Assembly: GCA_016192705.1 (NCBI GenBank)
Contig: JACPTQ010000052.1
Span: 1 to 39,754, forward strand
Direction of reading: 5' to 3'
Length of the DNA stretch: 39,754 bases
Source of the DNA: Deltaproteobacteria bacterium
Lineage (GTDB): Bacteria; Myxococcota; JACPTQ01
Shown one piece after another: positions 6,856-36,462 of the stretch (position 1 is its first letter; every line of letters begins with the position of its first letter). The translations under genes were made by a program, and so were the position numbers. A model generated the notes under the pieces. The model made no database searches. It was not told the DNA's origin and worked only from the letters and a program-made list of their open reading frames with translations.

Positions 6856-6884
6856 ACTATAAGGGGGCCGCCAAATCAAGTCGA
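6856..6884 (-). promoter_or_regulatory. Promoter of proS operon
   Basis: Minus-strand -35 TCGACT (6879-6884) and -10 TATAGT (6856-6861) are separated by 17 bp. Exactly 7 nt separate the -10 from ATG 6848, so the transcript should start at or next to the start codon and be leaderless. The -35 overlaps that of the divergent lipoprotein promoter. Confidence 0.6.
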
Positions 6885-6909
6885 TAGCCCGATCGGCGGC
6901 TGCTACAAT
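6881..6909 (+). promoter_or_regulatory. Divergent promoter of lipoprotein gene
   Basis: -35 TCGATA (6881-6886) and -10 TACAAT (6904-6909) are separated by 17 bp. The GTG start at 6917 follows the -10 by 7 nt, again implying a leaderless transcript. The -35 shares four bases with the proS -35, so one RNA polymerase should exclude the other. Confidence 0.6.
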
Positions 6910-6916
6910 CTTTAAC

Positions 6917-10168: not shown

Positions 10169-10252
10169 GGGAAACCTCCCAGCCTTTGCGGTGAGCGATT
10201 CTGAGCCGAAACGCGTGTTAAGACAATGGATGTTCCGGAGACATCGTCGGTT

Positions 10253-11065
10253 CTACCGGGACGACGCGCGCTTCCATCGGAGTTCGACCGGGACACGGCC
10301 CAGACGATCAATCTCGAGCCTTATCTCACGTGCGCCCTGTAGGCCTGCACTCATGTCGAAAACTTTCTGAATTGTGTCGAGCGCGGCGCCGTTGATAGAG
10401 CGCACGGTGTCGCCGTTTTGAAGGCCCAGTGCTGAGAGCGCGGTGCCGGGCCGAATCGCAAAGAGTTTTATTCCCGAATTGTTGGCGGCCGGAACCATGC
10501 GCGCTTCCGTCGTAAACAATTTCAGCAGCGAGTTGCGAAGATGATCCCAACCTGGCGATGAGATCTCGAATTCGTGGGTCCCAATCCGGCGGATGCTGGC
10601 GCGAATTCCATTGAGCACTTTGACGCTGACGACAGAGGTTGCGGATTTCGATGGATGCGGCGGTTGAACCGAATCGGAGGGACTGCCACCGGCCTGCTCT
10701 GCGGTCTCGGCCTCGAGGAGCCAGCCGTTATGTGTCTCCACAAGTCGGACGCCGGACCCCGCGATCGCGCGCTCGACCAGGCGAATCGCGGTTTCTCGTG
10801 AGACGGGGCGCGGCGTGTCGACGGAAATCCGGAATTTTTGCGCAAGGACGTACGCGCTGTCGCCCATCGAAATCGTCTCGTTAAGCGCCTTTGCGAGCGC
10901 CGGTAGCGAATCTGACAGCGAGCCCGTGAGATTCAGTGTGATTCCTGGGCGATCTTGAACGCGGGGTGGTTGGTTACTCGAGCACGAAAGAGGGACGGCG
11001 AGGACGAGAAACCATCGCGCCGCACGGTGTGGCTCTCGGTTCAAGAGGCTTCGTCGGATGTCCAC
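10253..11065 (-). CDS. GspC-like PDZ-domain lipoprotein
   Basis: The start is GTG 11065. A lipoprotein signal ends in LAVPLSC, giving mature CSSNQP. Residues ~45-120 resemble a secretin N-domain-like module (a VDTPRPVSRETAIRLVERA segment and a GVRLVETHNGWLLE strand). The C-terminal ~90 residues match the PDZ domain of type II secretion GspC: GIKLFAIRPGTALSALGLQN, then GDTVRSINGAALDTIQKVF, ending in IDRLGRVPVELRWKR. Typical GspC is a bitopic inner-membrane protein encoded beside gspD. Here the anchor is a lipobox and no other gsp gene is nearby, so a stand-alone periplasmic or outer-membrane role is likely. It sits 87 nt downstream of hflX on the same strand. Confidence 0.7.
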   Translation of the reverse strand: MDIRRSLLNREPHRAARWFLVLAVPLSCSSNQPPRVQDRPGITLNLTGSLSDSLPALAKALNETISMGDSAYVLAQKFRISVDTPRPVSRETAIRLVERAIAGSGVRLVETHNGWLLEAETAEQAGGSPSDSVQPPHPSKSATSVVSVKVLNGIRASIRRIGTHEFEISSPGWDHLRNSLLKLFTTEARMVPAANNSGIKLFAIRPGTALSALGLQNGDTVRSINGAALDTIQKVFDMSAGLQGAREIRLEIDRLGRVPVELRWKRASSR

Positions 11066-11152
11066 TTTGCAGTCCCCAGGGTGTGAAGATCAGCGCTTTC
11101 ATACTGAAAAGCCAGGTTCATCGCAAGGCGTGTCACGTTCACACGACGGGGA

Positions 11153-16739: not shown

Positions 16740-16821
16740 CAGACCCGAGGACGTCGGCGCGCCGAAGCGGGCTCCTGTCGACCCTCACGCTCACGAGCGA
16801 ACAAACCGCTTAACCGGGGAT
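16740..16821 (+). repeat. Module C repeat, copy 2 (82 bp)
   Basis: The copy runs from CAGACCCGAGG to AACCGGGGAT, with only a few differences from 418-499. It ends 52 nt before the -10 box of the REC-GGDEF gene and points toward that gene. Between it and module A copy 2 (16664-16739) is unique sequence with no recognisable feature. Confidence 0.9.
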
Positions 16822-16870
16822 TGGGCTCCAAGATCGTCTGCGGCGCCGCTGAATCTGGACCGCGCGCATC

Positions 16871-16879
16871 TGATATACT
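16871..16879 (+). promoter_or_regulatory. Extended -10 promoter of REC-GGDEF gene
   Basis: An extended -10 motif TG-A-TATACT is present without a clear -35. The GTG at 16887 follows by exactly 7 nt, consistent with a leaderless transcript. Confidence 0.55.
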
Positions 16880-16886
16880 GGCCAGG

Positions 16887-17813
16887 GTGTTTGTGATGGG
16901 GGATAACCGCGCCACGATTCGTGTCTTACAAGTTGAGGACGACGCCCTTCAACACGACCTCGTACAGGCACTCCTTCGCCACGCGCAGCATGCGCGATTT
17001 GATTTCGAGCACGTCGATCGGTTGGAGGACGCCCTGCGCCGACTAACCGACCGCGCCTTCGATGTCGTTTTGCTCGACTTTTCATTGCCGGATGGCGTCG
17101 GGCTTGAGATTCTCGACGCCGTGCTTCCGGCGGCAAAAGACGCGGCGATCGTGATTCACACCGGAAGCGACGACCAGGCGCTTGGTCTAGCGGCGCTCAA
17201 TCGCGGTGCCCAGGATTATCTCGTCAAGTCGATAACAGATGGGCGAGCGATGGAGCGCGCGATTCTTTACGCCATCGAGCGCAAGCGGGCGCAGGCGATG
17301 CTTCGACGCACGGAAACGGACCTCGCGTCTTTGGCGCTCATCGATGAACTGACCGGCCTCAATAATCGGCGCGGTCTGTTTCTGCTCGGCGAGCAAACGC
17401 TGAAACTCGCCGCGCGAAATCGCTCGGCCGCCGCTGTCGTTTTCGCCGACGTTGACGGTCTCAAAGAGATTAACGATCGCGCTGGCCATGCCGAGGGAGA
17501 TCGCGCGCTCGTCGATTTTGCGGGGATTTTGCGCGCGACGTTTCGAGACTCCGATGTACTTGGGCGGTTGGGCGGCGACGAGTTTGTTGCGATTGTTGGT
17601 GGTGGCGATGGCGCGGTTTTGCCGGAGCGACTTTTCGCGAACCTCGTAAAGAGTCGTGAACCAAGCGAGTCGTCCTATCGCCTGTCGGTCAGCGTCGGAT
17701 TGGCCGTATTTGACCCCGAGCACCCGCTCACTCTCGCCGAGCTGATTACACACGCCGACGAGGAGATGTATCTGCGGAAGCGGCAGGCGGGTCGCGCGCA
17801 GTGGCAACGATGA
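16887..17813 (+). CDS. Response regulator with GGDEF diguanylate cyclase output
   Basis: The protein is predicted to make cyclic di-GMP under control of a receiver domain. REC (residues ~8-130) has acidic LQVEDD, phospho-acceptor Asp in VVLLDFSLPDG and the conserved Lys in QDYLVKS. The GGDEF domain (~155-305) has ELTGLNNRRG, FADVDGLKEINDRAGHAEGD and the intact active site RLGGDEF. An RxxD inhibitory I-site (RDSD) precedes it by five residues, so product feedback is expected. The start is GTG 16887 at the -10 spacing; ATG 16896 is an alternative. The stop overlaps the ATG of the histidine kinase gene (ATGA), making that kinase the likely partner. Confidence 0.9.
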   Translation: MFVMGDNRATIRVLQVEDDALQHDLVQALLRHAQHARFDFEHVDRLEDALRRLTDRAFDVVLLDFSLPDGVGLEILDAVLPAAKDAAIVIHTGSDDQALGLAALNRGAQDYLVKSITDGRAMERAILYAIERKRAQAMLRRTETDLASLALIDELTGLNNRRGLFLLGEQTLKLAARNRSAAAVVFADVDGLKEINDRAGHAEGDRALVDFAGILRATFRDSDVLGRLGGDEFVAIVGGGDGAVLPERLFANLVKSREPSESSYRLSVSVGLAVFDPEHPLTLAELITHADEEMYLRKRQAGRAQWQR

Positions 17814-19120
17814 CGCGACCTACGACACCGGGAGAGTCACCGAACGGAGAACCGGTCGGTAGCAGCGCCCGCCTTCGAGTTCTTGCAGAGGTTTCACGCG
17901 CGTTTGCGACGGATGTCAGCAACCACGAGCGGCTCGTCGAGACGATCGTCCGGGCGGCGGCTGATCTCGTGGGAGACGGATGCCAGATCTTCCTCGTGAG
18001 CGACGATGGCCTTTCCCTCATCAACGCGGGGAATGCGCATCGCGACGCCGCCATCGAGTCCGACATCCGGAACTTCCTTGCGCTCGCGCCCCAGTCGCTC
18101 GCGACGAGTCAGATGGTCAGCGCCGGTGTGGTCCGCAGCGGCGAGCCGAAGCTTATCCCCGAGATTGAACCCGACGCTGCGGTTGCCGAGACCGATGCCG
18201 CAGTTATGCCGCTCTTGGCGCGGGTTCGAATCTACAGCGCCGCGATCGTGCCCATCCGCGCGCGCGGCGCCGTGATCGGTGCCATGTCGATGATCCGGAC
18301 GAGACCAGGCTGCGGCTACGCGTCCAACGATCTCACGTTGCTCGAGGACATCGCCGATCGCGCGGGATTGGCGATCGAGAACGCGCGCCTGTACGGTGAT
18401 CTCGAGCGGCGAGTTCGCGAACGGACGGTCGAGCTCGAAGCCGCGAACCGGGAGCTTGATGCGTTTAGCAGGATGGTGTCGCACGACCTGCGCGCGCCGC
18501 TTCGCCACATCGACGGATTCAGTCGGCTGCTGGTCGAGCGGTGTGCCGACAGGCTGGGCGACGAGGGGCGTGGTTATGTTGAGCGTTTGCGGGCGCGCGC
18601 GGAGCGAATGGCTGCGATCATCGATGACCTTCTCAAGTTGTCGCGCGTTGAGCGTGCCCAGTTTCAACGCGCGCGGGTCGATGTGACGAAGCTCGCCCGA
18701 GAGGTCGTGAAGGGGCTTCGCGCGGCGGGGCGCAATCGCGTCGCTGAAGTCCACGTGGCCGATGGGCTCGCGGCCGACGCAGATGGGCGGCTGCTCGCGA
18801 TTCTGCTTGAAAACGTGATCGGAAACGCGTGGAAATTTACAGAGAAAACCGCGGAACCGCGCATCGAGGTCGGCGAAACGTTGCGCGACGGACGCATGTT
18901 TTTCTTCGTGCGGGACAACGGAGCGGGATTCGATGGTGCGCAGGCGCATCGGATGTTCAAGGAGTTTCAGCGGCTGCACACGGAGACAGAGTTCGCGGGG
19001 ACGGGCATCGGGCTCGCCATCGTCGAGCGCATCGTGTCGCGGCACGGCGGGGGCGTTTGGGCGGAGGGGGCGGTCGGAACGGGGGCGACGATCTACTTTT
19101 CGTTGTCGCCGCCCTGCTGA
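17810..19120 (+). CDS. Soluble GAF-domain histidine kinase
   Basis: ATG 17810 overlaps the stop of the REC-GGDEF gene (GTG 17801 is possible). A GAF sensor domain spans residues ~20-190, followed by a short coiled coil (ERRVRERTVELEAANRELDA). HisKA then has the phospho-acceptor His in MVSHDLRAPLRHIDGFSRLL. HATPase_c carries NVIGNAWKF (N box), DNGAGFD (G1) and GTGIGLAIVERIVSRHGGG (G2). There are no membrane segments, so it senses a cytoplasmic or diffusible signal. The DLRAPLRHIDGFS type of H box is also found in phytochrome-like kinases, but no chromophore Cys is evident. It probably phosphorylates the adjacent REC-GGDEF protein to control c-di-GMP. The 268 nt after it hold nothing recognisable. 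Confidence 0.9.
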   Translation: MTRPTTPGESPNGEPVGSSARLRVLAEVSRAFATDVSNHERLVETIVRAAADLVGDGCQIFLVSDDGLSLINAGNAHRDAAIESDIRNFLALAPQSLATSQMVSAGVVRSGEPKLIPEIEPDAAVAETDAAVMPLLARVRIYSAAIVPIRARGAVIGAMSMIRTRPGCGYASNDLTLLEDIADRAGLAIENARLYGDLERRVRERTVELEAANRELDAFSRMVSHDLRAPLRHIDGFSRLLVERCADRLGDEGRGYVERLRARAERMAAIIDDLLKLSRVERAQFQRARVDVTKLAREVVKGLRAAGRNRVAEVHVADGLAADADGRLLAILLENVIGNAWKFTEKTAEPRIEVGETLRDGRMFFFVRDNGAGFDGAQAHRMFKEFQRLHTETEFAGTGIGLAIVERIVSRHGGGVWAEGAVGTGATIYFSLSPPC

Positions 19121-19388: not shown

Positions 19389-21215
19389 CTAGTTGCAAGC
19401 TCCGTAAACGGTCCAGCTTGCGACGCCGTTACAGACCGACCCCGATGGGCAGCCTTGACCGGTTGCCTTCTCACAGATCTTCCGACACCGGTTCGCAAAG
19501 CAGCCGTGGCCACCCGCGCACGGTGACGATGCCGAGCAACTGCTTCCAGCGATTCCTGAGCCGGTCAACGCGCAAGTCGTCGCTTCGCTCGACAAAACAA
19601 CGCACTCATTCGGCGACGAACAGCCGGTGTTGGCGACAGGATCGCAGCTCGTCGAGCTTTCACAGACGCCGCTGACGCAGATCGAGGAGCAGCACTCCGA
19701 CGACCCGGCGCATGACAAACCGTTAGCCTTGCAGGTTGGTGGCGTCACGCAGACGCCGGAGCTGCACGTTTGAGGCGATGAGCAACTGCCGCAACTGACA
19801 GTCCGACTCGAGCCGCAGTTGTCCGTTGCGGTGAAACTACCGCAAGTCTTTCCGAGGCGGCTACAAAATGCATTGTCGGTCTCGGATTGGCACACGAGCG
19901 TTCCACTAGGAAAGCTCGGCGTGAGCAGTGGCGCATAAAAATCGAAATCGAGCCGTTCGACGCCGGTGCCGTCAACGATGCTCTCGACGCGGCCGACGAG
20001 CCGCCCCGCGCACCAGTGGCCGTCGGACCATGCCGTTGCGTTTGCCGTGAAATCCAGGATTTGGATAACGACCGCCGTCTGCGAGCCAACGCTCCCCGAC
20101 CAGCGATTGTTGGTAGGGTCCCATTGGGAAAGCGCGATCATACCGGCATACTGCTGGCCAACGACGAGCGCTGGCTGTGGCGCATCGATCGCCAGTTTCA
20201 ATTGGTACTCGCCCACCGTTCCCACGAGCGGAAATGTTCTGTTCTGAATCTGCGGCCTGGTGTAGCCGAATACCTTGTTTCCGCGGCCAGAGACGGAATC
20301 GGTCCCGAATATCCACGCCGTGGTGACGTCGATGATCTGCGTCGCAATTGTTGGACCATAGTGCTCCACACGTCCGCGACCGTTGCACTCAACGAAGGAT
20401 GATCCAATGCCGGTGAAGTTCGAAGGGCCGGCGCCCATGGTTGAACCGCAAACGTTTCGCGTGCCCGCACCGCCGCAACCATCAGGCGCTCGGCACGACC
20501 CGCACGAGGCGACGGTGCGCGCACGACCACAGTTGTCGGTCGACGAGAAGAGGCCGCAGTTTTTCCCCATGCGTGCGCAAAGACGCGCGTCGGTTTCTGG
20601 GACGCATGTCCCGGCGCCGCAGACGTTTGCGGTTCCACCGCCGCCGCAGGTCGCGGGCGACGAGCAGGAGCCGCAGATCGCCATCCGCTCCGCGCCACAG
20701 AGATCTCGCGTGGCGAAGAGACCGCAGTTCTTCCCGCTCGAGGAGCAGAGATCGGGATCCGACTCCGCGACGCATCCCGGTGACCGACCGGCGTCGGGCG
20801 GCGGAGCTTCAGAACCGTAGACAAACGGGTTCGCGCACGCGGTCGGAAGTGCGGCTGGGTTTAATCCGCCGGTTGTCGCGCGCGAGCAGTCAATGTTGCG
20901 AAAGGCGGGGAGGCAGGTCGATTGGAAGGCGTTCGGATCGCGGAGCCCGGTCACGGCGGCACACCCGCCCGGGATCGATCGCTCCATCTGCGCCCGCAGC
21001 GCGTCCCGGCTCGGCGCTGGAGCGCCAAGGCTCGCGGCGCACTCGACCCCTTTCGCCGCGAGCGCATCAAAGTACGCGCGACACGCCTCGGGTCCCGACA
21101 TGCCACCTCCGCCCGCGCGAGCGCCTCCACCATCCGGCGACTCTGCCGCGCCGCCACATGCGGAAGCGATGACCCCAAGTAAACCGAGTCTTCCCATTGC
21201 ACACATTGTCATCAT
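19389..21215 (-). CDS. Cys-rich exported lipoprotein with three internal repeats
   Basis: ATG 21215 has GGAG 8 nt upstream; longer in-frame starts lack a signal peptide. The lipoprotein signal ends in LGVIASAC. The ~608-residue protein contains three ~50-residue Cys-rich repeats sharing a Cys, then ETD or ESD, a GK(N/T)CG core, TDNCG-like and CGSC elements. Two are at about residues 150-260 and one is at about 465-515. Between them is a ~150-residue domain without many Cys (around FTGIGSSFVECNGRGRVEHY and LDFDFYAP). The C-terminus has further Cys motifs (CKANGLSCAGSSECCS, CSSPNECVVL). Such patterns are typical of disulfide-stabilised Myxococcota surface proteins; no enzymatic motif is seen. 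It is the last of three consecutive lipoprotein genes. Confidence 0.8.
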   Translation of the reverse strand: MMTMCAMGRLGLLGVIASACGGAAESPDGGGARAGGGGMSGPEACRAYFDALAAKGVECAASLGAPAPSRDALRAQMERSIPGGCAAVTGLRDPNAFQSTCLPAFRNIDCSRATTGGLNPAALPTACANPFVYGSEAPPPDAGRSPGCVAESDPDLCSSSGKNCGLFATRDLCGAERMAICGSCSSPATCGGGGTANVCGAGTCVPETDARLCARMGKNCGLFSSTDNCGRARTVASCGSCRAPDGCGGAGTRNVCGSTMGAGPSNFTGIGSSFVECNGRGRVEHYGPTIATQIIDVTTAWIFGTDSVSGRGNKVFGYTRPQIQNRTFPLVGTVGEYQLKLAIDAPQPALVVGQQYAGMIALSQWDPTNNRWSGSVGSQTAVVIQILDFTANATAWSDGHWCAGRLVGRVESIVDGTGVERLDFDFYAPLLTPSFPSGTLVCQSETDNAFCSRLGKTCGSFTATDNCGSSRTVSCGSCSSPQTCSSGVCVTPPTCKANGLSCAGSSECCSSICVSGVCESSTSCDPVANTGCSSPNECVVLSSEATTCALTGSGIAGSSCSASSPCAGGHGCFANRCRKICEKATGQGCPSGSVCNGVASWTVYGACN

Positions 21216-21278: not shown

Positions 21279-23264
21279 TTACGGTTGAAATTTAGCGAGG
21301 GAAAGCTTGTATGGCGCGCCCTGGCTGAGGCTCCCCGCGCCCAAATCGGTCGGAAAGGCGTAAACGCCAAGCAAAAAAATGTTCTGCCAGCCATCGGTGG
21401 AAAGCGCGATTGGGCCGTGGAGGTCCCCCGACCTTACGGGTCCAAACTGTTGCGACCATATGTGCGTGCCGGCATTCCCAAGTTTGACCAAGAAGATGTC
21501 ATGTTCGTTTGCCGAAGAGGCGCTCGTCAAAACGCCTCCGCCAAAATCCATTGCGCCGGTGAATGTTCCAGAAGCGACGACGGCACCCGTCGAATCAATC
21601 GTCACAGCCAGCGGCCGGATCAAGTCGGCCTCTGTGGCGACAGGTGAGCCAAGTGCTCTTGCCCAAGCCACACCGCTGTCCGCGTCGTACTTTGTGATAA
21701 ACCCCGCGGAATAGGACGCTCCCAACGATGCTCCGCCGAAATCCACCCATTGATAAAATCGCCCCGTTACGGCGATTTCACCCAATGGCCCAACGGCGAT
21801 GGCTCTCGGCCCCTCGGCTCCGCGGCCCGCGATCGCTTTTGACCAAACGTGCGCGCCTTGCGCGTTGTACTTTACGACGAAGCCGTTGTACTCGGACGGA
21901 AACGCATTAAGCGCGCCGCCACCGAGATCGAGCGAACCCCTGAAAGTCCCCGCAACGATAATGTTCGCCGACGGGTCGATCCTGATGTCGCTCGTCCAAC
22001 TGGTGCTCGTGGGAAGCGTCTTGGACCAAACATGCGCGCCCGCGGCGTCGTAACGGACAAGATACGTAAGCCGCGCTAAGCTCGCCCCGACAGCACCCCC
22101 GCCAAAATCGAACGGACCCGTGATGTCGCCTGCAACAACAACGTTTCCCAATGGGTCGATCGCGACGGAATGGGCATTGTCTGCGTAAGCGCTTCCAACG
22201 CGCTTGCTCCAAAGATAAACGCCCGCCGCGGAGTACTTGATGATCAAGCCATCGGTTAGCCCCAGCGATGTGACCGTGCCACCAGGAACGCCGACTGGAT
22301 TGACGGTACCGAAGAACGATGTCGCCACGACGACGTCGCCATTCCGCGGGTCGGTGGCAACCGACCATCCCGTTTCGCACTCGCGATATCGCGAGTAATT
22401 ATAGAAATGATTGTAGTAAGAAAAATAATCGCAGTATGGACTCGAAATGCCGTCCGGGCTTCCGAGTGTTTTCGCCCAAACGTACGAGCCGTTAGACGCG
22501 TATTTTGCGATGAAGATATCTTCGAAGCCGGCCGAAGCGACCTCCCCTACGCCGAAATTGGCCCTACCCCAAAAGCTCCCGGTGACCACAGCGTTTTGCT
22601 GAGGGTCGATCGAGACGCTCGCGCCGCTGCTGCGCCTTGTGACCGCGCTGCTTACCTCCCACACGACGCCGGTGCGACGAAAGACCGCTGTCGCGCGTTT
22701 CCCTCGATCCATCGTGACTTGACACGTCGAAACGCGACCCGAACAGGCACCAAGCCACTCGTCGAAGACTGAGCCGGCCGCGGCTTCGGCGCGAAGCGTG
22801 ACGCGATCGTCGAGGTCGTACGCTGCAACGCACGTTAGGCCGCAATCGATCTTCTCGGAAACGACGCGGCCGCTCCCGACGATATCGCCCGCATAACGGC
22901 CCGCCTTCTTGAGAGTCACGGTGAGCGCGATCCCGAACGACGCCTGGACGAATCTCGGCTCGGTCATCCGAAGCGTGCACGGCCCCGTCCCGGTGCAGGC
23001 TCCCGACCAACCGGTGAATGCCAAGCCCTCAAGCGGCGTTGGGATCAAAGTGACCTCGGCGCCGTCATCGAATTCGTGAACGCACTGCGCGCCGCAGTAT
23101 ATGCCTGCCGGATCGGAAACGACGATGCCGCCGGTACCCGAAACGAGCGTCATCGTGCGCCGATCCGCGGGCGTCGGCCGACCGAAAGGAGTTTCGGCGG
23201 GGAGCGGGGTCGATGAGCAGGCGAACATCACGAGGCCACCTACGGTAACAGCGGCTCGAATCAC
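21279..23264 (-). CDS. Lipoprotein with InlB-B-like repeats and SBBP beta-propeller
   Basis: GTG 23264 is chosen because it gives a lipoprotein signal peptide (IRAAVTVGGLVMFAC) and lies 13 nt after the upstream gene's stop; the open frame further upstream overlaps that gene. Residues ~35-180 contain two copies of a ~70-residue module with GWSGACTGTGPC- and EWLGACSGRVSTC-type cores (divergent InlB B-repeat/bacterial Ig-like). The remaining ~430 residues are repeated units of about 50-60 residues, with VVVAG and DFGGG strands and repeated HVWSK, matching SBBP-type beta-propeller repeats. The protein is probably exposed on the cell surface and binds a ligand or polymer; no catalytic residues are seen. 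A Tyr/Phe-rich insert (YCDYFSYYNHFYNYSRYREC) is unusual. Confidence 0.8.
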   Translation of the reverse strand: MIRAAVTVGGLVMFACSSTPLPAETPFGRPTPADRRTMTLVSGTGGIVVSDPAGIYCGAQCVHEFDDGAEVTLIPTPLEGLAFTGWSGACTGTGPCTLRMTEPRFVQASFGIALTVTLKKAGRYAGDIVGSGRVVSEKIDCGLTCVAAYDLDDRVTLRAEAAAGSVFDEWLGACSGRVSTCQVTMDRGKRATAVFRRTGVVWEVSSAVTRRSSGASVSIDPQQNAVVTGSFWGRANFGVGEVASAGFEDIFIAKYASNGSYVWAKTLGSPDGISSPYCDYFSYYNHFYNYSRYRECETGWSVATDPRNGDVVVATSFFGTVNPVGVPGGTVTSLGLTDGLIIKYSAAGVYLWSKRVGSAYADNAHSVAIDPLGNVVVAGDITGPFDFGGGAVGASLARLTYLVRYDAAGAHVWSKTLPTSTSWTSDIRIDPSANIIVAGTFRGSLDLGGGALNAFPSEYNGFVVKYNAQGAHVWSKAIAGRGAEGPRAIAVGPLGEIAVTGRFYQWVDFGGASLGASYSAGFITKYDADSGVAWARALGSPVATEADLIRPLAVTIDSTGAVVASGTFTGAMDFGGGVLTSASSANEHDIFLVKLGNAGTHIWSQQFGPVRSGDLHGPIALSTDGWQNIFLLGVYAFPTDLGAGSLSQGAPYKLSLAKFQP

Positions 23265-23277: not shown

Positions 23278-24315
23278 TCACCAGCGATACTCGGCGGCGC
23301 AATCGGTCTTGAAGCTGTAGTCGCACTCAACCTGTGTGGGTGAAATGTGGCGCTCGATCTTGAGAAACCCGTGGTCCCCAAATCTCGCCTCAACGGAAAT
23401 AAAGTCATGCGTCCCGAATCCAGCAGCGTCAAAGAACCAACTCTTGGTGACATCGCCGCTGGCTGGTGCCAGCCCGTCTCTAGCGGTGATCTCACGATAA
23501 GAGCCGTCGCTACAGGTCCAAGGCCCGTCACAGCACCCCCAAGGACCGTCACATATGCCAGGGGCACGAGGCACTGGAGGACCGGCAGCAATGTGAAGGT
23601 CGACGCTGCATGCCCACGGTCCGTTGCACCGTGGCCCATTATCCAGCGCGTTCTGGTTAATCTTCACCGTTGCAACAAACGTGGACGAACTCGTCGAAGT
23701 TGCTGTCACCGTTGGACATGAGTAAGTCGCCCAATCGCCCCAGCCCGACTTTATCAGCGGCCGGCGTTCAACTCTGGTCGTACAACCGCCGGTGAGTGTC
23801 ATTGTTTGATTAAAGGGCGCGCCCGCGGCGACTTCCGCGCCTGCATCGACTCCCGTGCTCGTCAGTCGCACGAGATCGTACCAGCGCGTCGTGTTGACTT
23901 TCCGAATCGAAAGCGTGTCGCCCGTCAACCGGTAAGCGTAATTGCCGATTGCTCGATTCTGACCGTCGCGAAACTGGATATATTTAATCGTTCTGCTTTT
24001 CGTGAAACGATAGCGACCACTGTCTTGGACGGGCGCGCATGGCGCGGTTGTGCACGCGAGCGCGATCTCTCGCGCGAAGGTTTTATCAGCGCGGAGGGTG
24101 AGCGACGCAAGTTCACCCGGAGTTGCGCCCGCGCGAATGAATGTCCCAAATCGCGGATCGCTCTGGTCCGCCTTGTCATCGGCGAGAGTACTGTCGTCGA
24201 TGTCCGGGCTCTCGTCGCCCAAATCGATTTCGGACCCACAGCCGATAGCCAGCCCCACGACAGCAAGCACCGCCAGTTTTTCGTTGCACCTGTTTCCTTG
24301 TGACTTCGCCTTCAT
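23278..24315 (-). CDS. Hypothetical lipoprotein with CDGPW motifs
   Basis: ATG 24315 has GGAG 6 nt upstream. The signal peptide ends in VVGLAIGC, followed by an Asp/Glu-rich stretch (DLGDESPDIDDSTLADDKAD), common in myxobacterial outer lipoproteins. Residues ~55-150 (FGTFIRAGATPGELASLTL, RYRFTKSRTIKYIQF, LTGDTLSIRK) look like a lipocalin-like or beta-barrel repeat. A peculiar segment around residues 230-275 repeats C(N/D)GPW four times (CNGPWAC, CDGPWGC, CDGPWTC). The C-terminal part is beta-rich with paired Cys. I do not recognise the family. It is the first gene after an intergenic region with phased TACA motifs and is probably co-transcribed with the two lipoproteins downstream. Confidence 0.75.
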   Translation of the reverse strand: MKAKSQGNRCNEKLAVLAVVGLAIGCGSEIDLGDESPDIDDSTLADDKADQSDPRFGTFIRAGATPGELASLTLRADKTFAREIALACTTAPCAPVQDSGRYRFTKSRTIKYIQFRDGQNRAIGNYAYRLTGDTLSIRKVNTTRWYDLVRLTSTGVDAGAEVAAGAPFNQTMTLTGGCTTRVERRPLIKSGWGDWATYSCPTVTATSTSSSTFVATVKINQNALDNGPRCNGPWACSVDLHIAAGPPVPRAPGICDGPWGCCDGPWTCSDGSYREITARDGLAPASGDVTKSWFFDAAGFGTHDFISVEARFGDHGFLKIERHISPTQVECDYSFKTDCAAEYRW

Positions 24316-24420
24316 TCTTTTCTCCTCATTCCTTTCTATTTTCTTTTCCCGTCGCTTTACCGAGCGACGACCCTATTCAGTCCGAAGCGAGACTAACGTC
24401 CCTACGAAAAAGCGCCGACC

Positions 24421-24472: not shown

Positions 24473-27421
24473 TTAGCGATTGCGATCGCGCAGAACGCGC
24501 CGAAAGACGGCTGCCTCTTGGCCGAACGCGTACCCTGTTTCAGTTGTGATGAGTCGCTTTGGTCGCGCTGGGTCGTCTTCGATAAGGAGCCTCAGATCGT
24601 GAATGACCTTGTGAAGCCGTTTCCCGTGACGAATCGGATGAAAATCCCCGATGTTCCAAGTCGACGAAAAAAGCGCCGCTGTTTCCATCATGCCGCCGTT
24701 TCCGGCGAGCGCGGCGAGAACCTTCCACAGTGTCTCTCGCGTCCCAAGATCGACAACGCGATTGCCCGGCAACACGACGCACCGCTCGACATCGTCGATC
24801 CCCCAACTCTCGGGGTCCCATTCGCCAGCGACCGGTCCACGCGTCGTTTCGATTCGAAACGCTTGCGCACGCCGCGCAATCGCCGCAAGCACGAGGTTGT
24901 CAACGCGATCTCGATTCGCCGCCGCACCGAGAAGACAGCGCGCTCGCCGCATGGCGACTGGCGCCACGTCTTCAAGCCGTGCGAGCATCATGAGCGTCGC
25001 AAGTTTCGCGGAATCCTTCGACGCCGCGAAAACGAAGAATTCCGCCTCGTGTTCGAATCGCGGTGATCCGGCCTCGCGCGCGCGTTTTGCGAGAGCCCCC
25101 GCCTCGGCTCGCAACTCCCGAAACGCACCCGATGCACACAGCACGTCGCACAACGCGGCCCGCGCCTCGAGCTCAACGATTCCGATCCCGTTGACCTCGG
25201 CGTTTCGAACCGCTGTGTGGGCAAATCGCCCTGCGAGGCCCATGCGGTTCATGCGCAGCACGTGGACGGACCTCGCGATCAAGAGCCAGCACTGTTCGTC
25301 CTCAATCCCATCAAACTCGGGATCGCTCGGAATTTCGGTCGGCACATCGTCGAACTGGTGCATCGCCTGGAGCAGCAACGTCGCCTTTAAGTGAAGCGCG
25401 CCACTGCCCATATACTCATTCGATTCGACACCCGGCTCACTCACCGAATACGGTTCGGCGTATAAGATCGCCATTTGCACGCGACACGCGAGAAACCATT
25501 TTCGATTGTGATTCGATCCCGGGGTCCCATCGCACAGCTCAATATTGCGCGTAATCCTCTCATGGAAGTTCGCGAAATTCCCAACGGCGAGATCGAGCGG
25601 AATATCTAACGTCGCTTGCGCGAGTCTGAGGATGTCCGACAACGCCATGAGCACCTTAGTCTCGTCGCGTAGCGCGGCGGCGCGGCGAAAATCTCCCCCA
25701 AATACATTGACACAGTAAAAAGTAACGAGGGAGAAGCGGTCCCCGACGGTTAACACGGGACGTCGTTCAATATCGGGAAGCCACCGATCGAAAAACTCGC
25801 GAGCGCGGCGGATCAGGCCGAAATAGAGATAATGGCTACAAATCCTGTTTGCGACTTCGATGAGGGATTCGGCGTCGAGCTTTGCCAAGAGGGGCATTAC
25901 TTTAGCCACGAGCAAGTCCCCCTGCTGACGATCCCCCCGCATCCCAACGATGGCCGCAAGCAGAGCCATTTGGCGGGCCGCCTGCGCCGCAGTTCCGGAT
26001 GGCACACGGCGAACGATGCGCTCGGCTTTAGCATTGGCGGAAAGGCGGAGGGCGAGGCCTGCGATCATTCCCGCCTCGAACGCGATGTCTGTTTTTTTCG
26101 CCTTCACCGCATCATCGGCGAGACACCGTGCAACCGAACCAAGGCTCGCTCCACGCTGCCTGAGAGATACGGCCCGCACCCAGGCGAGACGTGCATCGAA
26201 TTCCGATGCGTCGGGCTCTCGGACGATATCCAGCACCAGAGGGTCGGCCGCGGCAACCGCCGCACGAAGTTGAGTGCGAGAAAACCGTTCGTCGCGGACC
26301 GATTGGAGCAGGTGCCAAAGCTGCGTCCCGTACCCTTCGGTGATGAGTCGTTCATCTCGGGTTCGAAGGAGCGTCAAGGCTGCGTCACGCTCCCGGTGCG
26401 CGAGAAAAATGCGAATCGCCTCCATTGCGACGGCGCTTTCATCGACTTGGGCGAGCGCGCGCGCAACGTCGGGCGCATGCGCGTCGATGACGGGCTGCCC
26501 AATCTCCGCTTCAACGAGCGGCCGCGCAACATCGTGAAGGCGATACCCAGCGGGCGTTTCTTCGATGAGACCCAGTCGCTCCAGGCGTTCCATCTCGCCA
26601 TCAGATGGAGCAGGTCCTAGCCCCGAAACGAACTGCGGAGACAACGCCCCATCAAGTACGGCCAACGTTTTGACAAACGCGCACGACGCCTCTGAAAGTC
26701 CTGCGAGAATTCCATCAGCACCCGTCGCCGCAGCCCTCTTGGCGGCGATAATCTGGATGAGGCGCCACGGCGAACCCGATGCGGCCTTGACGGAATGCGC
26801 GACCGCGCGCTCGGAAGCCGACGGAAGCCGCGCACGCACAAGTCGCGACAGGTCGTCGTCCGACATGGCCGGAAGGCAAAACAGATGTGCGTCAAGATCG
26901 GTGTGAAGCGGTCGTTCACGCGTGGTGGCGATCCATTTGCTCTTCTTTCGTGCATACTTCGCGACCGCATGGAGCAAATCGTCACGCTCGCGAAGCGGCA
27001 TCGCGTGAAGATTGTCGAGAAAAATCCACGCGCCGGTCTCGTCGACAATCTCGATCGTCATCGCCAGGGCCGACTCCCAGTCGCCGCGCACCGCGCTCCA
27101 CGGATTCGAGTCGATTCCAGCAACCTGACACGCCCCGCGCACGATGTCCGCGAGCGCCTGCATGGGGGATTCGCTCGCCCTAAGCGACACGACCGCGGTT
27201 CGCCGCGCGTGCGTCTTGAAAAACCGGTGAACGGTCTGCAGCACGAGCGACGTCTTCCCGAAACCACCGTACGCCCAAACAACCGAGAGCGACGAACGTT
27301 CGATCGCCGCGCGAAGGTCGACTGCTTCCTTGTCGCGCCCGACAAAGTAAGCGTTTGGATTCGGCAGAACGAAGCGCAGCGACTTCGGCCGCGTTGTGGG
27401 TTTGCGCAATCGGCGCCTCAT
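24473..27421 (-). CDS. STAND-type ATPase regulator with C-terminal winged helix
   Basis: The ~982-residue protein starts at ATG 27421, overlapping the stop of a short leader ORF; ATG 27451 is an alternative. Residues ~25-330 form a signal-transduction NTPase: FVGRDKEAVDL, Walker A AYGGFGKTSLV, Walker B-like GAWIFLDNLHA, sensor-type IATTRERP, and a winged-helix linker (LGLIEETPAGYRLHDVARPL). The middle ~500 residues are Ala/Leu/Arg-rich helical repeats, likely TPR-like. The last ~110 residues (VVDLGTRETLWKVLAALAGN, IRHGKRLHKVIHDLRLLIED, TETGYAFG) resemble an OmpR/SARP-type winged helix, here at the C-terminus. It is probably a ligand- and ATP-controlled activator; the three lipoprotein genes downstream, after the phased TACA repeats, are likely targets (inference). 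Confidence 0.8.
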   Translation of the reverse strand: MRRRLRKPTTRPKSLRFVLPNPNAYFVGRDKEAVDLRAAIERSSLSVVWAYGGFGKTSLVLQTVHRFFKTHARRTAVVSLRASESPMQALADIVRGACQVAGIDSNPWSAVRGDWESALAMTIEIVDETGAWIFLDNLHAMPLRERDDLLHAVAKYARKKSKWIATTRERPLHTDLDAHLFCLPAMSDDDLSRLVRARLPSASERAVAHSVKAASGSPWRLIQIIAAKRAAATGADGILAGLSEASCAFVKTLAVLDGALSPQFVSGLGPAPSDGEMERLERLGLIEETPAGYRLHDVARPLVEAEIGQPVIDAHAPDVARALAQVDESAVAMEAIRIFLAHRERDAALTLLRTRDERLITEGYGTQLWHLLQSVRDERFSRTQLRAAVAAADPLVLDIVREPDASEFDARLAWVRAVSLRQRGASLGSVARCLADDAVKAKKTDIAFEAGMIAGLALRLSANAKAERIVRRVPSGTAAQAARQMALLAAIVGMRGDRQQGDLLVAKVMPLLAKLDAESLIEVANRICSHYLYFGLIRRAREFFDRWLPDIERRPVLTVGDRFSLVTFYCVNVFGGDFRRAAALRDETKVLMALSDILRLAQATLDIPLDLAVGNFANFHERITRNIELCDGTPGSNHNRKWFLACRVQMAILYAEPYSVSEPGVESNEYMGSGALHLKATLLLQAMHQFDDVPTEIPSDPEFDGIEDEQCWLLIARSVHVLRMNRMGLAGRFAHTAVRNAEVNGIGIVELEARAALCDVLCASGAFRELRAEAGALAKRAREAGSPRFEHEAEFFVFAASKDSAKLATLMMLARLEDVAPVAMRRARCLLGAAANRDRVDNLVLAAIARRAQAFRIETTRGPVAGEWDPESWGIDDVERCVVLPGNRVVDLGTRETLWKVLAALAGNGGMMETAALFSSTWNIGDFHPIRHGKRLHKVIHDLRLLIEDDPARPKRLITTETGYAFGQEAAVFRRVLRDRNR

Positions 27422-27623: not shown

Positions 27624-28112
27624 ATGACGGAAACACCAGATACGCGTGCAGCGGCGCCGCGCGGGCGGTTTTATGAGGATTTTGCGGTCGGGCAAATAAT
27701 CGCGCATCCTCGCGGGCGAACGGTGGAGGCGGGCGACGCGATTCTTTTTACGACGTCGATGATGAACACGAACCCGCTTTATTTCAACGCGCATCGGGCG
27801 CGCGAGGCGGGGCACCCGGCGATGGTAATTGACCCGCTTTATGTGTGGAACATCGTGTTTGGGATGACGGTCGAGGATCTGTCGTTCAACGTGTTTGGCG
27901 CGGGGAATTTGGGTTATCCGACGATCGAATTCGTGAAAGCGGTTTACCCGGGCGACACGCTTTACGCGGAGAGCGAAGTGCTCGACGTCACGCCGTGGAA
28001 AAAGCGCGACGATTGCGGCGTCGTGCATGTGCGCACGATCGGGACGCGGCCGGGCGGCGATGTCGTGCTGCGGTATGAGCGAAAAATTCTCGTGAAGAAG
28101 CGGGGCGCGTGA
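27624..28112 (+). CDS. MaoC-family hot-dog enoyl-CoA hydratase (first)
   Basis: ATG 27624 has GGAGG 5-6 nt upstream; the longer frame is rejected. The 162-residue single hot-dog protein begins FYEDFAVGQIIAHPRGRTV, typical of MaoC dehydratases. The family hydrates 2-enoyl-CoA to 3-hydroxyacyl-CoA. The hydratase region is DAILFTTSMMNTNPLYFNAHR, and VVLRYERKILVKKRG forms the last strands. The usual Asp/His hydratase motif is not exact, so the substrate may be unusual (for example a dicarboxylic or branched acyl-CoA). The stop overlaps the acyl-CoA dehydrogenase start (TGATG), so these genes are translationally coupled. Confidence 0.85.
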   Translation: MTETPDTRAAAPRGRFYEDFAVGQIIAHPRGRTVEAGDAILFTTSMMNTNPLYFNAHRAREAGHPAMVIDPLYVWNIVFGMTVEDLSFNVFGAGNLGYPTIEFVKAVYPGDTLYAESEVLDVTPWKKRDDCGVVHVRTIGTRPGGDVVLRYERKILVKKRGA

Positions 28113-31500: not shown

Positions 31501-32430
31501 ATGGCTCGCCCGCCGCGCTCAACCTCGACCCCCATCATCCTCGCCAGCGTCGCCGTGCCGCTCGCCATCGCAATTCTCGTCGGCTGGATTCTGCTCATCG
31601 CGCTCAACATCGAACTCTCTCAGCACGTCGCGGGGCGCACGTGGCTTCTCGTCACGGGGGTCGTTTCGCTTGTTTTCATCATGGTGGTGCTTGTGCTCTT
31701 CAGCGTGTTCCTGGTGCGCGAAATCATGGAGGTGCGCCGGCAAAACAGTTTCATCGACTCGGTCACGCACGAACTCAAAAGCCCGCTCGCGTCGCTCAAG
31801 CTGTGCGCCGAAACGCTCGCCCGGGATGAGCTGTCGATCGCGCAACGCGAGGAGCTGCGACAGATGATGCTGGGCGATGTTGAGCGGTTGTCGGTTTTCA
31901 TTGACGATGTGCTTGAAGCAAGTCGAATCGCGCATGGTCTTGCGGGGGCTGGACAAACGGCGGACGAGGTCGACGTGGGCGAATTGGTGTCGCGGTGTGC
32001 TGCGAGCGTTGCAAAGCGACACAACGTCGATCCCGCGTCGGTCGTGGTTGATGTCGCCGCGCCGGTGCGCCTTGTGACGGATGTCCTCTCGCTCGAAATC
32101 GTTTTTAAAAACCTTCTCGACAACGCGGTGAAATACTCTGGTGACGTGGTGCGGGTCGTCGCGAAAGTCGATCGCGATACGGATGGGCGCGGAATCGTGA
32201 CCGTGCGCGACGAAGGGATTGGAATCGCGCGGCGACACTTACGGCGCGTGTTTGAGCGGTTTTATCGGGTGCAAAACGAGCCGGTGCGGGCGCGGCATGG
32301 GTCGGGGCTCGGGCTCTTTGTTGTCGCTTCGCTCGTCGAGCACTTGGGTGGGAAGATTGTCGCGCAGTCAGACGGCGAAGGTTTCGGGACGATGATGCGC
32401 GTGACGTTGCCGAGGAGTGAAACGCGATGA
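31501..32430 (+). CDS. Membrane histidine kinase, PhoR-like
   Basis: The 309-residue kinase starts at ATG 31501. Two transmembrane helices (residues ~12-35 and ~47-72) enclose a very short extracytoplasmic loop, so ligand sensing is probably intramembrane or by a partner. HisKA carries the phospho-acceptor in FIDSVTHELKSPLASLKL near residue 90. HATPase_c has NLLDNAVKYS, DEGIGI and GSGLGLFVVASLVEHLGG. No PAS or HAMP domain is evident. The stop overlaps the response regulator start (ATGA), so the two are translationally coupled and form a pair. Confidence 0.92.
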   Translation: MARPPRSTSTPIILASVAVPLAIAILVGWILLIALNIELSQHVAGRTWLLVTGVVSLVFIMVVLVLFSVFLVREIMEVRRQNSFIDSVTHELKSPLASLKLCAETLARDELSIAQREELRQMMLGDVERLSVFIDDVLEASRIAHGLAGAGQTADEVDVGELVSRCAASVAKRHNVDPASVVVDVAAPVRLVTDVLSLEIVFKNLLDNAVKYSGDVVRVVAKVDRDTDGRGIVTVRDEGIGIARRHLRRVFERFYRVQNEPVRARHGSGLGLFVVASLVEHLGGKIVAQSDGEGFGTMMRVTLPRSETR

Positions 32431-33134
32431 CCGAAGCCGAGCCGCGAATTTTGGTTGTCGAGGATGAACGGCATTTGTCGAGTGGGCTGAAGCTCAACTT
32501 CGAGCTTGAAGGGTATGCGGTCGACGTTGCCGAGACCGCGCGCGAGGCGGGAAACCTGCTCGTGCGATCGGGCCGGTACGACGCAATCCTTCTCGATATT
32601 ATGCTGCCCGACCTCGACGGTTTCGCGCTCTGCGAAAAGCTGCGCGCCGCGGGGAATTTCACGCCGGTCATCATGCTCACGGCACGCGGGTCGGCGATCG
32701 ATCGCGTGCGAGGTCTCGAAGTCGGTGCGGACGACTACGTGGCAAAGCCGTTCGATCTCAAAGAGCTGCTCGCGCGGGTTCGATCCGTGCTTCGGCGCCG
32801 CGGGTGGGATCGTGATGGCGCGGCGGCACCGGCCCGTGAGCTTTCGTTTGGTCGCGCTCGCGTCAACTTCGATTCACACGCCGTGACGGTCGATGGTCGC
32901 GCGATTGCGTTGACGCAGCTCGAGATCGACTTGCTTCGTTTTTTCGCCGACAATGCGGGACGCGTCGTGTCACGGGCTGAGCTGCTCGAAAAGGTGTGGA
33001 AGCTTCGAAACGCGCCGAATACGCGCTCGGTCGACAATTTTATTGGGCGTTTGCGCAAGCACTTCGAGTCCGACGCCGACCGGCCGGTACACTTCATCGC
33101 GGTGCGCGGCGCGGGTTATAGGTTTCAGCCTTGA
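32427..33134 (+). CDS. OmpR/PhoB-family response regulator
   Basis: The 235-residue DNA-binding regulator has a receiver with VVEDERHL, phospho-acceptor Asp in ILLDIMLPDLDGF, TAR in VIMLTARGS and Lys in DDYVAKPF. The winged helix has LTQLEIDLLRFFADNAGRVV, RSVDNFIGRLRKHFE and VRGAGYRFQP. The ATG overlaps the kinase stop. It is the likely reader of the direct repeats at 31400-31438. The targets may include its own operon and the divergent radical SAM gene (inference from position). Confidence 0.95.
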   Translation: MTEAEPRILVVEDERHLSSGLKLNFELEGYAVDVAETAREAGNLLVRSGRYDAILLDIMLPDLDGFALCEKLRAAGNFTPVIMLTARGSAIDRVRGLEVGADDYVAKPFDLKELLARVRSVLRRRGWDRDGAAAPARELSFGRARVNFDSHAVTVDGRAIALTQLEIDLLRFFADNAGRVVSRAELLEKVWKLRNAPNTRSVDNFIGRLRKHFESDADRPVHFIAVRGAGYRFQP

Positions 33135-34563: not shown

Positions 34564-36462
34564 TCAGCGTTCGCGGGGCTTGATGATGAGCTTGTTGTCG
34601 CTGTCCGGGAGGACAGTGATTTCGCGCGTCTCGACGGGCGTGCCGGCTGCGTGGCGAATCGTAACGATTCGTTTCCCGGAACGAACGCCGTGAATTTTTG
34701 TGACGGGGAGCGGCAGGTCGAGCGCTTTTCCGTCAAGGAGGACCGTCACGCCGTCGGGTGCTCGGACGACGAGCGTCCCGGTGCGCGGTGGCTCTGGCGC
34801 GGGGCGAGGAGCGGGCGCGGGGGCGGATGGCAGGTCGAGACGCGCGGCGGCGGCACTGGGCGCAGATGGTCGTGCGCGTTGCTTCGGAGCGCGGCGCGGC
34901 AAATCGTCGCGGGTGCGCCGGGCGTCCATGCGGGATGCGGGAGCGGGTGCGGGAGCGGGTGCGGGAGCGGGAGCGGCGGCGGGTGCGGGAGCGGGAGCGG
35001 GTGCGGGAGCGGCGGCGGGTGCGGGTGCGGGAGCGGGAGCGGGAGCGGTTGCGGGGATTTGACGCAAAGGCGCCGGGACGCCAAGAAGAGAAGGAGCTGT
35101 TTTAGCGTCTTTGCGGCTTTGCGCCTCTGCGTTGAAATCCCCTGCGGGCGCGGGTGCGGGAGCGGGTGCGGGAGCGGGTGCGGTTGTTCGATCGGACAAC
35201 GCAAACACGAGCGCCACGACCGCAGTGGCCGTCGTTGCTGCAGCGCCCACCCAAGCACGCGTCTTTCGACTTCGTGGCTGGGCGGGCAGCGCCTCACCCG
35301 AGACGGTGTTTGTCGCGGTGTGGGCAATGCGGTCGGCCGTCGCGCGCGCGCGGCTCGCTTCTCCGATTCCCTTTTGCTTCAACGCCTTCCCAGGTTCTGG
35401 CGTGGCGGTGCGCGTGTCGGCTTGCCACGTGCCTGGCACGACCGTCGGATCTGGAAGCGATTTCGCCTCGGTTGCCGTCAGCACCTGCGTTGGCTCGCGC
35501 GTCCGATTTTCGTCGGCCTCGCCGCCAAACAAAAAACTCATCCACTCGCCGAGCGTCGACTCGTCGGCGCCGCCAAGCGTCGCGATCGCCCGCCCCACTT
35601 CGCGCACCACTTCGTCAGCCCCCTGAAACCGGTCGTCCTTTTTTCGCGCCAGCAGCTTCGACACGATTTCCCACGTCCCATCGCTTTCGCTGCTCGACTG
35701 CAATCCATCCGGGACTTTCGGTGTCCCCATGAGTATCCGCGCGAGGACTTCGCTGTCCGAATCGCCTTGAAACGGCTTTTCGCCGTACAGCATTTCAAAG
35801 AGCACGATCCCAAGCGCGAAAAGATCGCTCCGCGCGTCGATCGACTCACCGGCCGCCTGCTCAGGCGACATGTAGGTGATCTTCCCTTTGAGCACGCCGG
35901 TGCGCGTCATTCCCGCGCGGGACGTGGCTTTTGCGATGCCAAAGTCGGAAATCTTCACCTCGCCCGAGTACGACACGAGGATGTTGTGGGGCGATATGTC
36001 GCGGTGGACGATCCCGAGGGGCACGCCATCGACGCGTCGTCCGTGCGCGTAAGCGAGGCCCCGCGCCACTTCGCGTGCAATGTGAAGTGCGAGCGCAGGC
36101 GCCAAGCGTTTTCCGACACGCCGCGCCTTCTCAAGGATGCGCCGCAAATCGTGACCGTCAACAAACTCCATCGCGAGATAAAAAACACCGTCGACCTGGT
36201 CAAACTCGTGAACCTGAACGATGTTCGCGTGTTGCAGCCGGGCGACAAGCTTCGCTTCGTCTTGGAACATCCGCACAAATTCATCGTCCTCGCCAAACTG
36301 CGGCAGGATGCGCTTGATGACGACCTCTTTCTCGAAACCCGCGGCACCAAACGACTTCGCGAGAAAAACCTCGGCCATGCCGCCAACCGCAAGTCGACGA
36401 ACGAGCGTGTACTTGCCGAAGGGCTGCGGCGCGATCTCATGCATTCTTGACGTAAGTGACAT
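34564..36462 (-). CDS. Ser/Thr protein kinase with Pro/Ala linker and PEGA-like tail
   Basis: The start is ATG 36462 (MSLTSRMHEIAP); 36492 and 36444 are alternatives and ribosome-binding sites are weak. The Hanks kinase domain (residues ~15-275) is complete: LAVGGMAEVFLA glycine loop, VIKRIL Lys, catalytic HRDISPHNILV, DFGIAKA, and SPEQAAGE. After a ~130-residue linker comes a transmembrane helix (WVGAAATTATAVVALVFAL). Outside it lies a Pro/Ala spacer split by a 90-bp palindromic repeat coding FNAEAQSRKDAK, then a PEGA-like module (TLVVRAPDGVTVLLDGKAL, IVTIRHAAG). The cytoplasmic kinase is thus coupled to an extracytoplasmic PEGA domain. The likely substrate-recognising partner class includes FHA proteins. 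It has no obvious operon. Confidence 0.9.
   Translation of the reverse strand: MSLTSRMHEIAPQPFGKYTLVRRLAVGGMAEVFLAKSFGAAGFEKEVVIKRILPQFGEDDEFVRMFQDEAKLVARLQHANIVQVHEFDQVDGVFYLAMEFVDGHDLRRILEKARRVGKRLAPALALHIAREVARGLAYAHGRRVDGVPLGIVHRDISPHNILVSYSGEVKISDFGIAKATSRAGMTRTGVLKGKITYMSPEQAAGESIDARSDLFALGIVLFEMLYGEKPFQGDSDSEVLARILMGTPKVPDGLQSSSESDGTWEIVSKLLARKKDDRFQGADEVVREVGRAIATLGGADESTLGEWMSFLFGGEADENRTREPTQVLTATEAKSLPDPTVVPGTWQADTRTATPEPGKALKQKGIGEASRARATADRIAHTATNTVSGEALPAQPRSRKTRAWVGAAATTATAVVALVFALSDRTTAPAPAPAPAPAPAGDFNAEAQSRKDAKTAPSLLGVPAPLRQIPATAPAPAPAPAPAAAPAPAPAPAPAAAPAPAPAPAPAPASRMDARRTRDDLPRRAPKQRARPSAPSAAAARLDLPSAPAPAPRPAPEPPRTGTLVVRAPDGVTVLLDGKALDLPLPVTKIHGVRSGKRIVTIRHAAGTPVETREITVLPDSDNKLIIKPRER
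34928..35185 (+). repeat. GCGGGTGCGGGAGC simple repeat in kinase gene, split by a palindrome
   Basis: Tandem 6/12-bp units (GCGGGTGCGGGAGCGGGAGC and variants) cover 34928-35052 and 35143-35185, coding Pro/Ala on the minus strand. The 90-bp palindromic element at 35053-35142 interrupts the array. The unit resembles the Ala/Asp/Gly repeat at 7037-7270. Confidence 0.8.
35053..35142 (-). repeat. 90-bp palindromic dispersed-type repeat in frame in kinase gene
   Basis: The ends are long inverted arms: GGGGATTTGACGCAAAGGCG at 35053 pairs with GCCTCTGCGTTGAAATCCCC ending at 35142 apart from a few mismatches. The central part repeats GCAAAG/GTCTTTGCGGC units. It is 30 codons long and translates as DFNAEAQSRKDAKTAPSLLG; NAKAQRRKDAK-type peptides from CGCAAAGGCGCAAAG repeats are known to me from many bacterial genomes, so this is probably a mobile or amplified element, not kinase sequence. 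It lies within the Pro/Ala spacer, which tolerates insertions. Confidence 0.7.

Follow-up and report, generated by a model that had tools for sequence, protein, structure and literature searches.

MalT of Escherichia coli ends in a LuxR-type DNA-binding domain. This domain is located at the C-terminus of a STAND ATPase (PMC6468293, PMC10427625), and IniR of mycobacteria is described as having a C-terminal DNA-binding domain that resembles the LuxR-like SdiA (PMC5760070). In AfsR of Streptomyces, a STAND core, TPR repeats, and an OmpR-type domain are united in one protein, in which the DNA-binding domain and the BTAD are N-terminal (PMC10936776). The putative DNA-binding domain of PH0952 from Pyrococcus horikoshii is N-terminal and ArsR-like, and STAND effectors are reported to occur at either protein end (PMC6468293). 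In this study, we analyzed a stretch of 39,754 nucleotides from a Deltaproteobacteria bacterium of the phylum Myxococcota (contig JACPTQ010000052.1 of assembly GCA_016192705.1, positions 1 to 39,754; hereafter the window), in which an open reading frame (ORF) at 24473..27421 on the minus strand encodes a 982-residue protein predicted to consist of a STAND ATPase, helical repeats, and a C-terminal OmpR-type winged helix. The gene starts with ATG at 27421 and stops at 24473, these coordinates including the stop codon. The ORF, a Pfam nSTAND1 match, AlphaFold2 (AF2) models, and three paralogs in the same genome support this assignment, and both the position of the ORF and the domain order given in a preliminary description of the window, namely the nucleoside triphosphatase first and the DNA-binding domain last, agreed with the ORF, the Pfam scans, and the AF2 models. 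We consider the gene product to be probably a one-component, ATP-switched transcription factor working like MalT.

The sole Pfam match of the window protein was nSTAND1, with an E value of 3.5e-6 and 27.4 bits (cut-off 27.1). Its nucleotide-binding oligomerization module (NOD), composed of nucleotide-binding, helical, and winged-helix domains (NBD-HD-WHD), was assigned to approximately residues 1-307 (26501..27421, minus strand) on the basis of structure matches to PH0952, the MalT NOD, and Apaf-1, together with profile evidence. A family profile constructed from the window protein, the three same-genome paralogs, and four relatives (profile A2) matched PH0952 (6mfv) at E 1.8e-25. The full-length AF2 model (pLDDT 82.9, pTM 0.66) was matched best by PH0952 (Z 27.7, root-mean-square deviation (rmsd) 10.7 over 547 residues), in an alignment reaching model residue 844, and second best by the MalT NOD (8bob; Z 23.5, rmsd 4.0 over 364), with Apaf-1 (3sfz) also found at Z 20.7 and rmsd 4.1 over 379. 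In the family alignment, a Walker A region with a GxGK core was located at residues 49-58 (27248..27277), a Walker B region at residues 131-139 (27005..27031), and a GxP motif at residues 216-218 (26768..26776), all on the minus strand. The G, G, and K of Walker A were kept in all 35 covering members (three of the 38 being gapped), the acidic residue of Walker B likewise in 35 of 35 (28 D, 7 E), and the G and P of GxP in 34 of 34. The same alignment placed the sequence LHD of the internal WHD, which we take to be the MHD-like position, at residues 295-297 (26531..26539, minus strand). The window protein and its family were thus revealed to possess a STAND core of the NBD-HD-WHD type that carries the Walker A, Walker B, and GxP motifs. 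Next to this core, a helical-repeat (TPR-like) arm and sensor was delimited at residues ~308-851 (24869..26500, minus strand) from the AF2 secondary structure and the 6mfv alignment; the model is mostly helical over ~540 residues (about 309-851), in good agreement with the ~500 residues of helical repeats noted in the preliminary description.

The WHD is a winged helix internal to STAND cores (PMC6468293), and the C-terminal winged helix of the window protein is a second domain, separate from it. This domain occupies residues 873-966 (24524..24805, minus strand) and was assigned to the OmpR/PhoB type from an AF2 model of the C-terminus, from matches to KdpE, YycF, and OmpR, and from PF00486. 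Structure prediction, which had been suggested as a check on the DNA-binding-like end, returned a winged-helix fold of the DNA-binding type with OmpR/PhoB topology (pLDDT 93.7, pTM 0.86) when the C-terminus was modelled alone with 30 relatives (alignment A3, which retains 31 of the 38 members after removal of near-duplicates). The fold matches listed for this model were OmpR/PhoB-type domains, the best solved match being YycF (6cqg; Z 11.0, rmsd 2.1 over 92), accompanied by KdpE (4kfc; Z 10.1, rmsd 2.6 over 100) and AfsR (8hvr; Z 9.8, rmsd 2.8 over 103). In addition, the last hundred residues matched YycF/VicR/WalR at E 5e-7 to 8e-7 in the search with profile A2, and a further C-terminal profile search matched YycF at E 2.9e-11. 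PF00486 (Trans_reg_C) was detected at E<=0.01 in 30 of 31 family members, the sole miss being the window copy (E 0.05); the scores of the three paralogs, on contigs C73, C62, and C48, were 0.0017, 6.7e-7, and 7.8e-7, respectively. Pfam scans of the protein, its paralogs, and family members found no BTAD, the window protein ending 16 residues after the winged helix, and no Response_reg match, that is, no receiver domain, was obtained for the window protein or the three paralogs. GerE (LuxR-type) was likewise without a match in Pfam scans of the C-terminal domains.

In OmpR-type proteins, the loop before the recognition helix is a variable contact with RNA polymerase. The 38-member alignment and the helix positions of the AF2 model placed a family motif, YHPxR[DH]D (residues 927-933; 24623..24643, minus strand), at this loop and the start of the recognition helix. 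Among the 38 closer members, the first position is Y or F in all 38; H and R are each present in 37, the final D in 36, and P in 35, and this constancy is notable because the loop is usually variable. The window copy and the C73 paralog deviate from the consensus, here (FHPIRHG) as well as at a preceding KE motif.

The three paralogs in the genome share the same architecture, the one on C73 being 42% identical to the window copy. Six OmpR-type DNA-binding domains were found in this genome; four reside on such STAND proteins, two of these four below the Pfam threshold, and the remaining two lie on short frames, one of which is a response regulator encoded in the window. In the phylogenetic tree, the window copy was paired with the C73 paralog (support 100), and the four same-genome copies joined L071 and L008/L009/L012 in an open fork (92), which does not establish a single within-genome origin. 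The family was rare among near kin of the source genome: the first search for relatives matched none of 57 other genomes of the phylum, a 195-genome search of the phylum yielded one partial match outside the genome itself, and a scan of genome contigs yielded five relatives in metagenome-assembled genomes titled Nannocystis, Myxococcales, Deltaproteobacteria, and Polyangia. Further afield, at least 33 of 183 genomes in the order of L008's genome carry a member at E<=1e-25, and at least 77 of 317 genomes in its class carry the C-terminal domain at E<=1e-12 (profile A4, the C-terminal domain of 29 members), both counts including the genomes of L008-L012 that led to those groups. Since a limited number of candidates was scored per genome (up to four in the 195-genome and 183-genome searches and up to 14 in the 317-genome search), all three counts are lower bounds.

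Among the C-terminal-domain matches listed, 100 of 121 were in frames of at least 500 residues, and the other 21 in shorter frames, down to 86. In all 20 distant members hand-picked from the long-frame matches (L182 being cut by a contig end), the C-terminal domain ends a frame of 864-1232 residues. A P-loop pattern was present in 18 of these 20, and the other two gave NOD profile matches of 9e-34 and 6e-33, within an overall span of 9e-34 to 0.0032. As judged from the sequences, the order of STAND core, repeats, and C-terminal winged helix is kept across a widespread myxobacterial family, for which no whole-protein family model was matched in Pfam or NCBIfam scans. In one locus (L077, genome G214), two divergent family members are arranged tail to tail, at 5783-8440 (+) and 9153-12221 (-).

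A working model can be outlined with the MalT switch (PMC10427625) as template. In the resting state, the nucleotide-binding module would contain ADP, and the arm together with the helical-repeat sensor would keep it closed. Binding of a ligand to the sensor would lead to exchange of ADP for ATP, upon which the ATP-bound protein would oligomerize, and the oligomer would gather the C-terminal OmpR-type winged helices on DNA. Sequence comparison and structural models establish the predicted STAND core, helical-repeat middle, and OmpR-type end, as well as the conservation of their order; for the ATP switch, oligomerization, and DNA binding, we infer the putative behavior from MalT, AfsR, and PH0952.

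The surface-protein set that the preliminary description had placed downstream of the STAND gene was present with all three of its members, each on the minus strand. The first gene encodes a predicted lipoprotein with CDGPW repeats (23278..24315; ORF, lipobox IGC, no Pfam match), which lies 157 bases downstream of the STAND gene and contains 14 Cys in 345 residues; five other places in the same genome match parts of its sequence. A predicted lipoprotein with InlB-B and SBBP repeats (21279..23264; Pfam PF18998 and PF06739, lipobox) follows 13 bases further on, with a likely GTG start at 23264 picked by eye. The third is a predicted lipoprotein with three Cys repeats (19389..21215; no Pfam match; likely ATG start at 21215, again picked by eye), in which a repeat of ~43 residues occurs in three copies at residues 168, 224, and 462. 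Because they share one strand and are closely spaced, these three genes look like a single transcription unit. Upstream of the STAND gene, a MaoC/acyl-CoA dehydrogenase/MaoC set runs divergently, beginning with a MaoC-type hydratase gene (27624..28112, plus strand, start inferred; Pfam and sequence) positioned head-to-head with the STAND gene, ~200 bases separating the two starts.

Other signaling genes were also observed in the window. At 31501-33134 (+), a histidine kinase is paired with an OmpR-type response regulator, the latter being one of two strong Trans_reg_C matches obtained for the genome, and a Ser/Thr protein kinase gene is located at 34564-36444 (-), ~7 kb upstream of the STAND gene. 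Beyond the surface genes and opposite to them in direction, a response regulator with GGDEF is followed by a GAF histidine kinase at 16821-19120 (+). No plasmid record was matched, so that a plasmid origin is without support.

The preliminary description regarded the downstream genes as a hint of a signal-controlled surface system. Lipoproteins as a class were found to flank STAND genes more often than control or TetR genes, and the looser link to surface lipoproteins is for this reason partly supported, although the specific neighbors were not conserved. At least one flanking lipoprotein was present for 21 of 38 STAND genes; among control genes this applied to 94 of 360, and among TetR genes to 11 of 40 (0.012 for the latter). 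Counted by adjacent gene, 25 of 70 beside STAND genes encoded lipoproteins, as opposed to 60 of 418 control genes (Fisher 4.8e-5) and 12 of 79 beside TetR genes (0.0033). Against other genes of the same loci (48 of 250), the difference was weaker than against the separate controls (Fisher 0.004), lipoproteins making up 9 of 69 genes two places away and 39 of 181 genes three or more away. After grouping at 60% identity, a flanking lipoprotein was found in 17 of 29 groups (a group counting if any member has one), and averaging over the group representatives gave 18.6 lipoproteins in 52.5 adjacent genes (~0.0003 against the controls). Cys-rich genes accounted for 17 of 70 genes adjacent to STAND genes, versus 41 of 418 controls and 8 of 79 beside TetR genes. 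The flanking lipoproteins were of many kinds and unrelated in sequence; in three related genomes, lipoproteins of one group are the immediate neighbors and run divergently. The C48 paralog likewise has a divergent neighbor (L007, 9487-11424, minus strand), a predicted lipoprotein that matches the transglutaminase elicitor domain PF16683 at E 5.2e-74.

The excess is of modest size, and the test behind it has weak points. Genes and starts were taken from a home-made caller, which gave short starts to some STAND genes and missed the CDGPW lipoprotein of the window, the window being scored by the next gene; the lipobox test accepted alternative starts within 70 codons, equally for all sets. The lipoprotein pattern had been seen in these loci before testing, the idea itself coming from the preliminary description, and the loci are related, L075 and L097 being identical. 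The control stretches were hand-chosen at round coordinates (29 loci, L125 of the initial 30 being dropped as it holds a STAND gene), and the 40 TetR loci were hand-chosen from the listed matches, mostly high-scoring ones.

The more specific proposal of a conserved four-gene neighborhood, for which a lack of conservation in relatives had been named beforehand as the refutation, was rejected. By tblastn, neither the CDGPW protein nor the triple-Cys protein was found in any of 36 other STAND loci (L005-L010, L012, and L071-L099; the short L011 and L014 excluded), and the SBBP gene was found in one of the 36 (L095, ~4.6 kb off) versus two of 70 control loci. Several loci reach contig ends within a few kb, and the absence therefore holds for the stretches covered. 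Within the source genome, the relatives of the three downstream proteins among the matches listed lie on other contigs, none of them on C73, C62, or C48. When neighbors shared by the four paralogs were sought, kinase, response-regulator, and GGDEF proteins were the only matches besides the STAND proteins. At the C62 paralog (L006, 873-8837), the STAND gene follows a 1688-residue protein kinase/AAA/GAF/histidine kinase hybrid and two GAF/GGDEF response regulators.

The head-to-head arrangement at the upstream side allows a different target, in that the STAND protein would regulate the divergent MaoC/acyl-CoA dehydrogenase/MaoC operon and its own gene rather than the surface genes, with a CoA-linked metabolite as the ligand. 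We regard this as rather unlikely, given that tblastn of the three proteins matched none of the 36 other STAND loci and that, of the 70 control loci, three gave matches, all of them acyl-CoA dehydrogenases.

Regulation by phosphorylation has also to be considered, since the protein might be an AfsR/SARP-type regulator with reordered domains, its activity being adjusted by a Ser/Thr kinase in the way that AfsK acts on AfsR. The DNA-binding domain of AfsR indeed matches the C-terminal winged helix in two structures (8hvr, as above, and 8k60 at Z 9.7), and in seven loci (L074, L075/L097, L081, L085, L087, and L094) a Ser/Thr kinase is encoded no more than two genes away and a Cys-rich lipoprotein no more than three. 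The lipoproteins of these seven loci belong to one group, next door in three loci and three genes away in four; a TPR protein is present in all except L094, a PEGA domain was found in both kinases scanned, and one of the two lipoproteins scanned gave a weak Fn3 match. In the tree, six of these loci together with L093 (cut at the contig start) form a supported clade, and L094 is placed apart from it, within a wider fork of 17 rows. Within two genes of STAND genes, however, kinases accounted for 9 of 141 neighbors (at most eight of them independent) versus 15 of 418 controls (Fisher 0.12); the kinase link was accordingly rejected as a family feature and is a feature of some loci only. The kinase gene of the window is separated from the STAND gene by 7 kb and by other genes, and the lack of a BTAD in the Pfam scans, as well as the end of the protein 16 residues past the winged helix, also argues against this explanation, which appears improbable. 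Least likely of all is a role in immunity or cell death, in which the protein would be an Avs-like or NLR-like STAND and its C-terminal domain would serve assembly alone: in multicellular bacteria, STAND proteins can act as conflict systems (PMC7159879) and Avs3 and Avs4 also appeared in the fold-search list, but PADLOC weakly matched one of eight members (mad8, E 0.001) and not the window copy, the terminal domain has a canonical DNA-binding fold, and plasmid records gave no match.

Several observations weigh against a MalT-like switch acting on the surface genes. The MHD-like His is present in just 21 of 33 covering members, and the NOD profile match is weak in several distant members (E 0.0006 to 0.0032 in three). 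The DNA-binding end of the window copy is divergent, with T-A where the family has K-E, and its target may therefore differ or its binding may be weaker. Direct repeats in the two spacers of the window and in the spacers of three relatives were few and none was shared, so that no operator was found; the lone tight direct-repeat pair, at 24312-24337, overlaps the start region of the CDGPW lipoprotein. Promoter-like sites (2 versus 2.1 expected) and terminator-like sites (10 versus 10.9 expected) were at chance level. Furthermore, genes at a distance are also somewhat lipoprotein-rich, so that part of the excess is regional; the divergent MaoC/acyl-CoA dehydrogenase genes are by position an equally good target; and with a Ser/Thr kinase close by in seven loci, phosphorylation might be the trigger there.

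With these points considered, a MalT-like transcription factor remains our preferred assignment for the gene product. Gene position and the flank statistics suggest, tentatively, that its targets could include the downstream lipoprotein genes; if the lipoprotein link is regulatory, it would provide a handle on how myxobacteria choose among surface proteins. We are doubtful of the broader view of a myxobacteria-wide class of NLR-like transcription factors, each dedicated to a neighboring, ever-changing set of surface lipoproteins. If it were true, the regulator would be conserved and the surface cargo swapped, as in a system that varies or monitors the cell surface.

In comparison with the known systems, the window protein shares with MalT and IniR an N-terminal STAND core, a helical-repeat sensor, and a C-terminal DNA-binding domain, which is the order of the MalT/LAL proteins. 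A C-terminal DNA-binding domain on a STAND protein is thus less unusual than the preliminary description supposed, given that MalT (PMC6468293) and IniR (PMC5760070) have one. The C-terminal LuxR-type (GerE) helix-turn-helix of MalT/LAL proteins is lacking, the window protein ending instead in an OmpR/PhoB-type winged helix, and the NCBIfam MalT model matched one of eight family members, at E 0.0023. With AfsR, it has in common a STAND core, repeats, and an OmpR-type domain in a single protein; in AfsR the winged helix and the BTAD are N-terminal, whereas in the window protein the winged helix comes last and no BTAD was found. The N-terminal winged helix followed by BTAD that characterizes SARP/AfsR regulators is therefore absent, and the order reversed relative to these regulators, as first noted in the preliminary description, is upheld by the predicted DNA-binding fold at the C-terminus. 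PH0952 is the best match in both sequence and structure for the STAND core and repeats, and differs in its N-terminal ArsR-like domain. The OmpR/PhoB response regulators KdpE and YycF/WalR have the same winged-helix fold and belong to the same sequence family as the C-terminal domain; they carry a receiver domain, in contrast to the STAND ATPase and the near-invariant YHPxR[DH]D found here. No STAND protein with a C-terminal OmpR-type domain was noted in the titles and abstract openings of part of the matching papers in the open-licence literature. Each element is already known separately, and the combination of an OmpR-type domain, its C-terminal position, and the lack of a BTAD, as read from the sequences, is apparently new. 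With its OmpR-type domain placed behind the ATPase, at the C-terminus, the protein would represent a third wiring of a STAND transcription factor.

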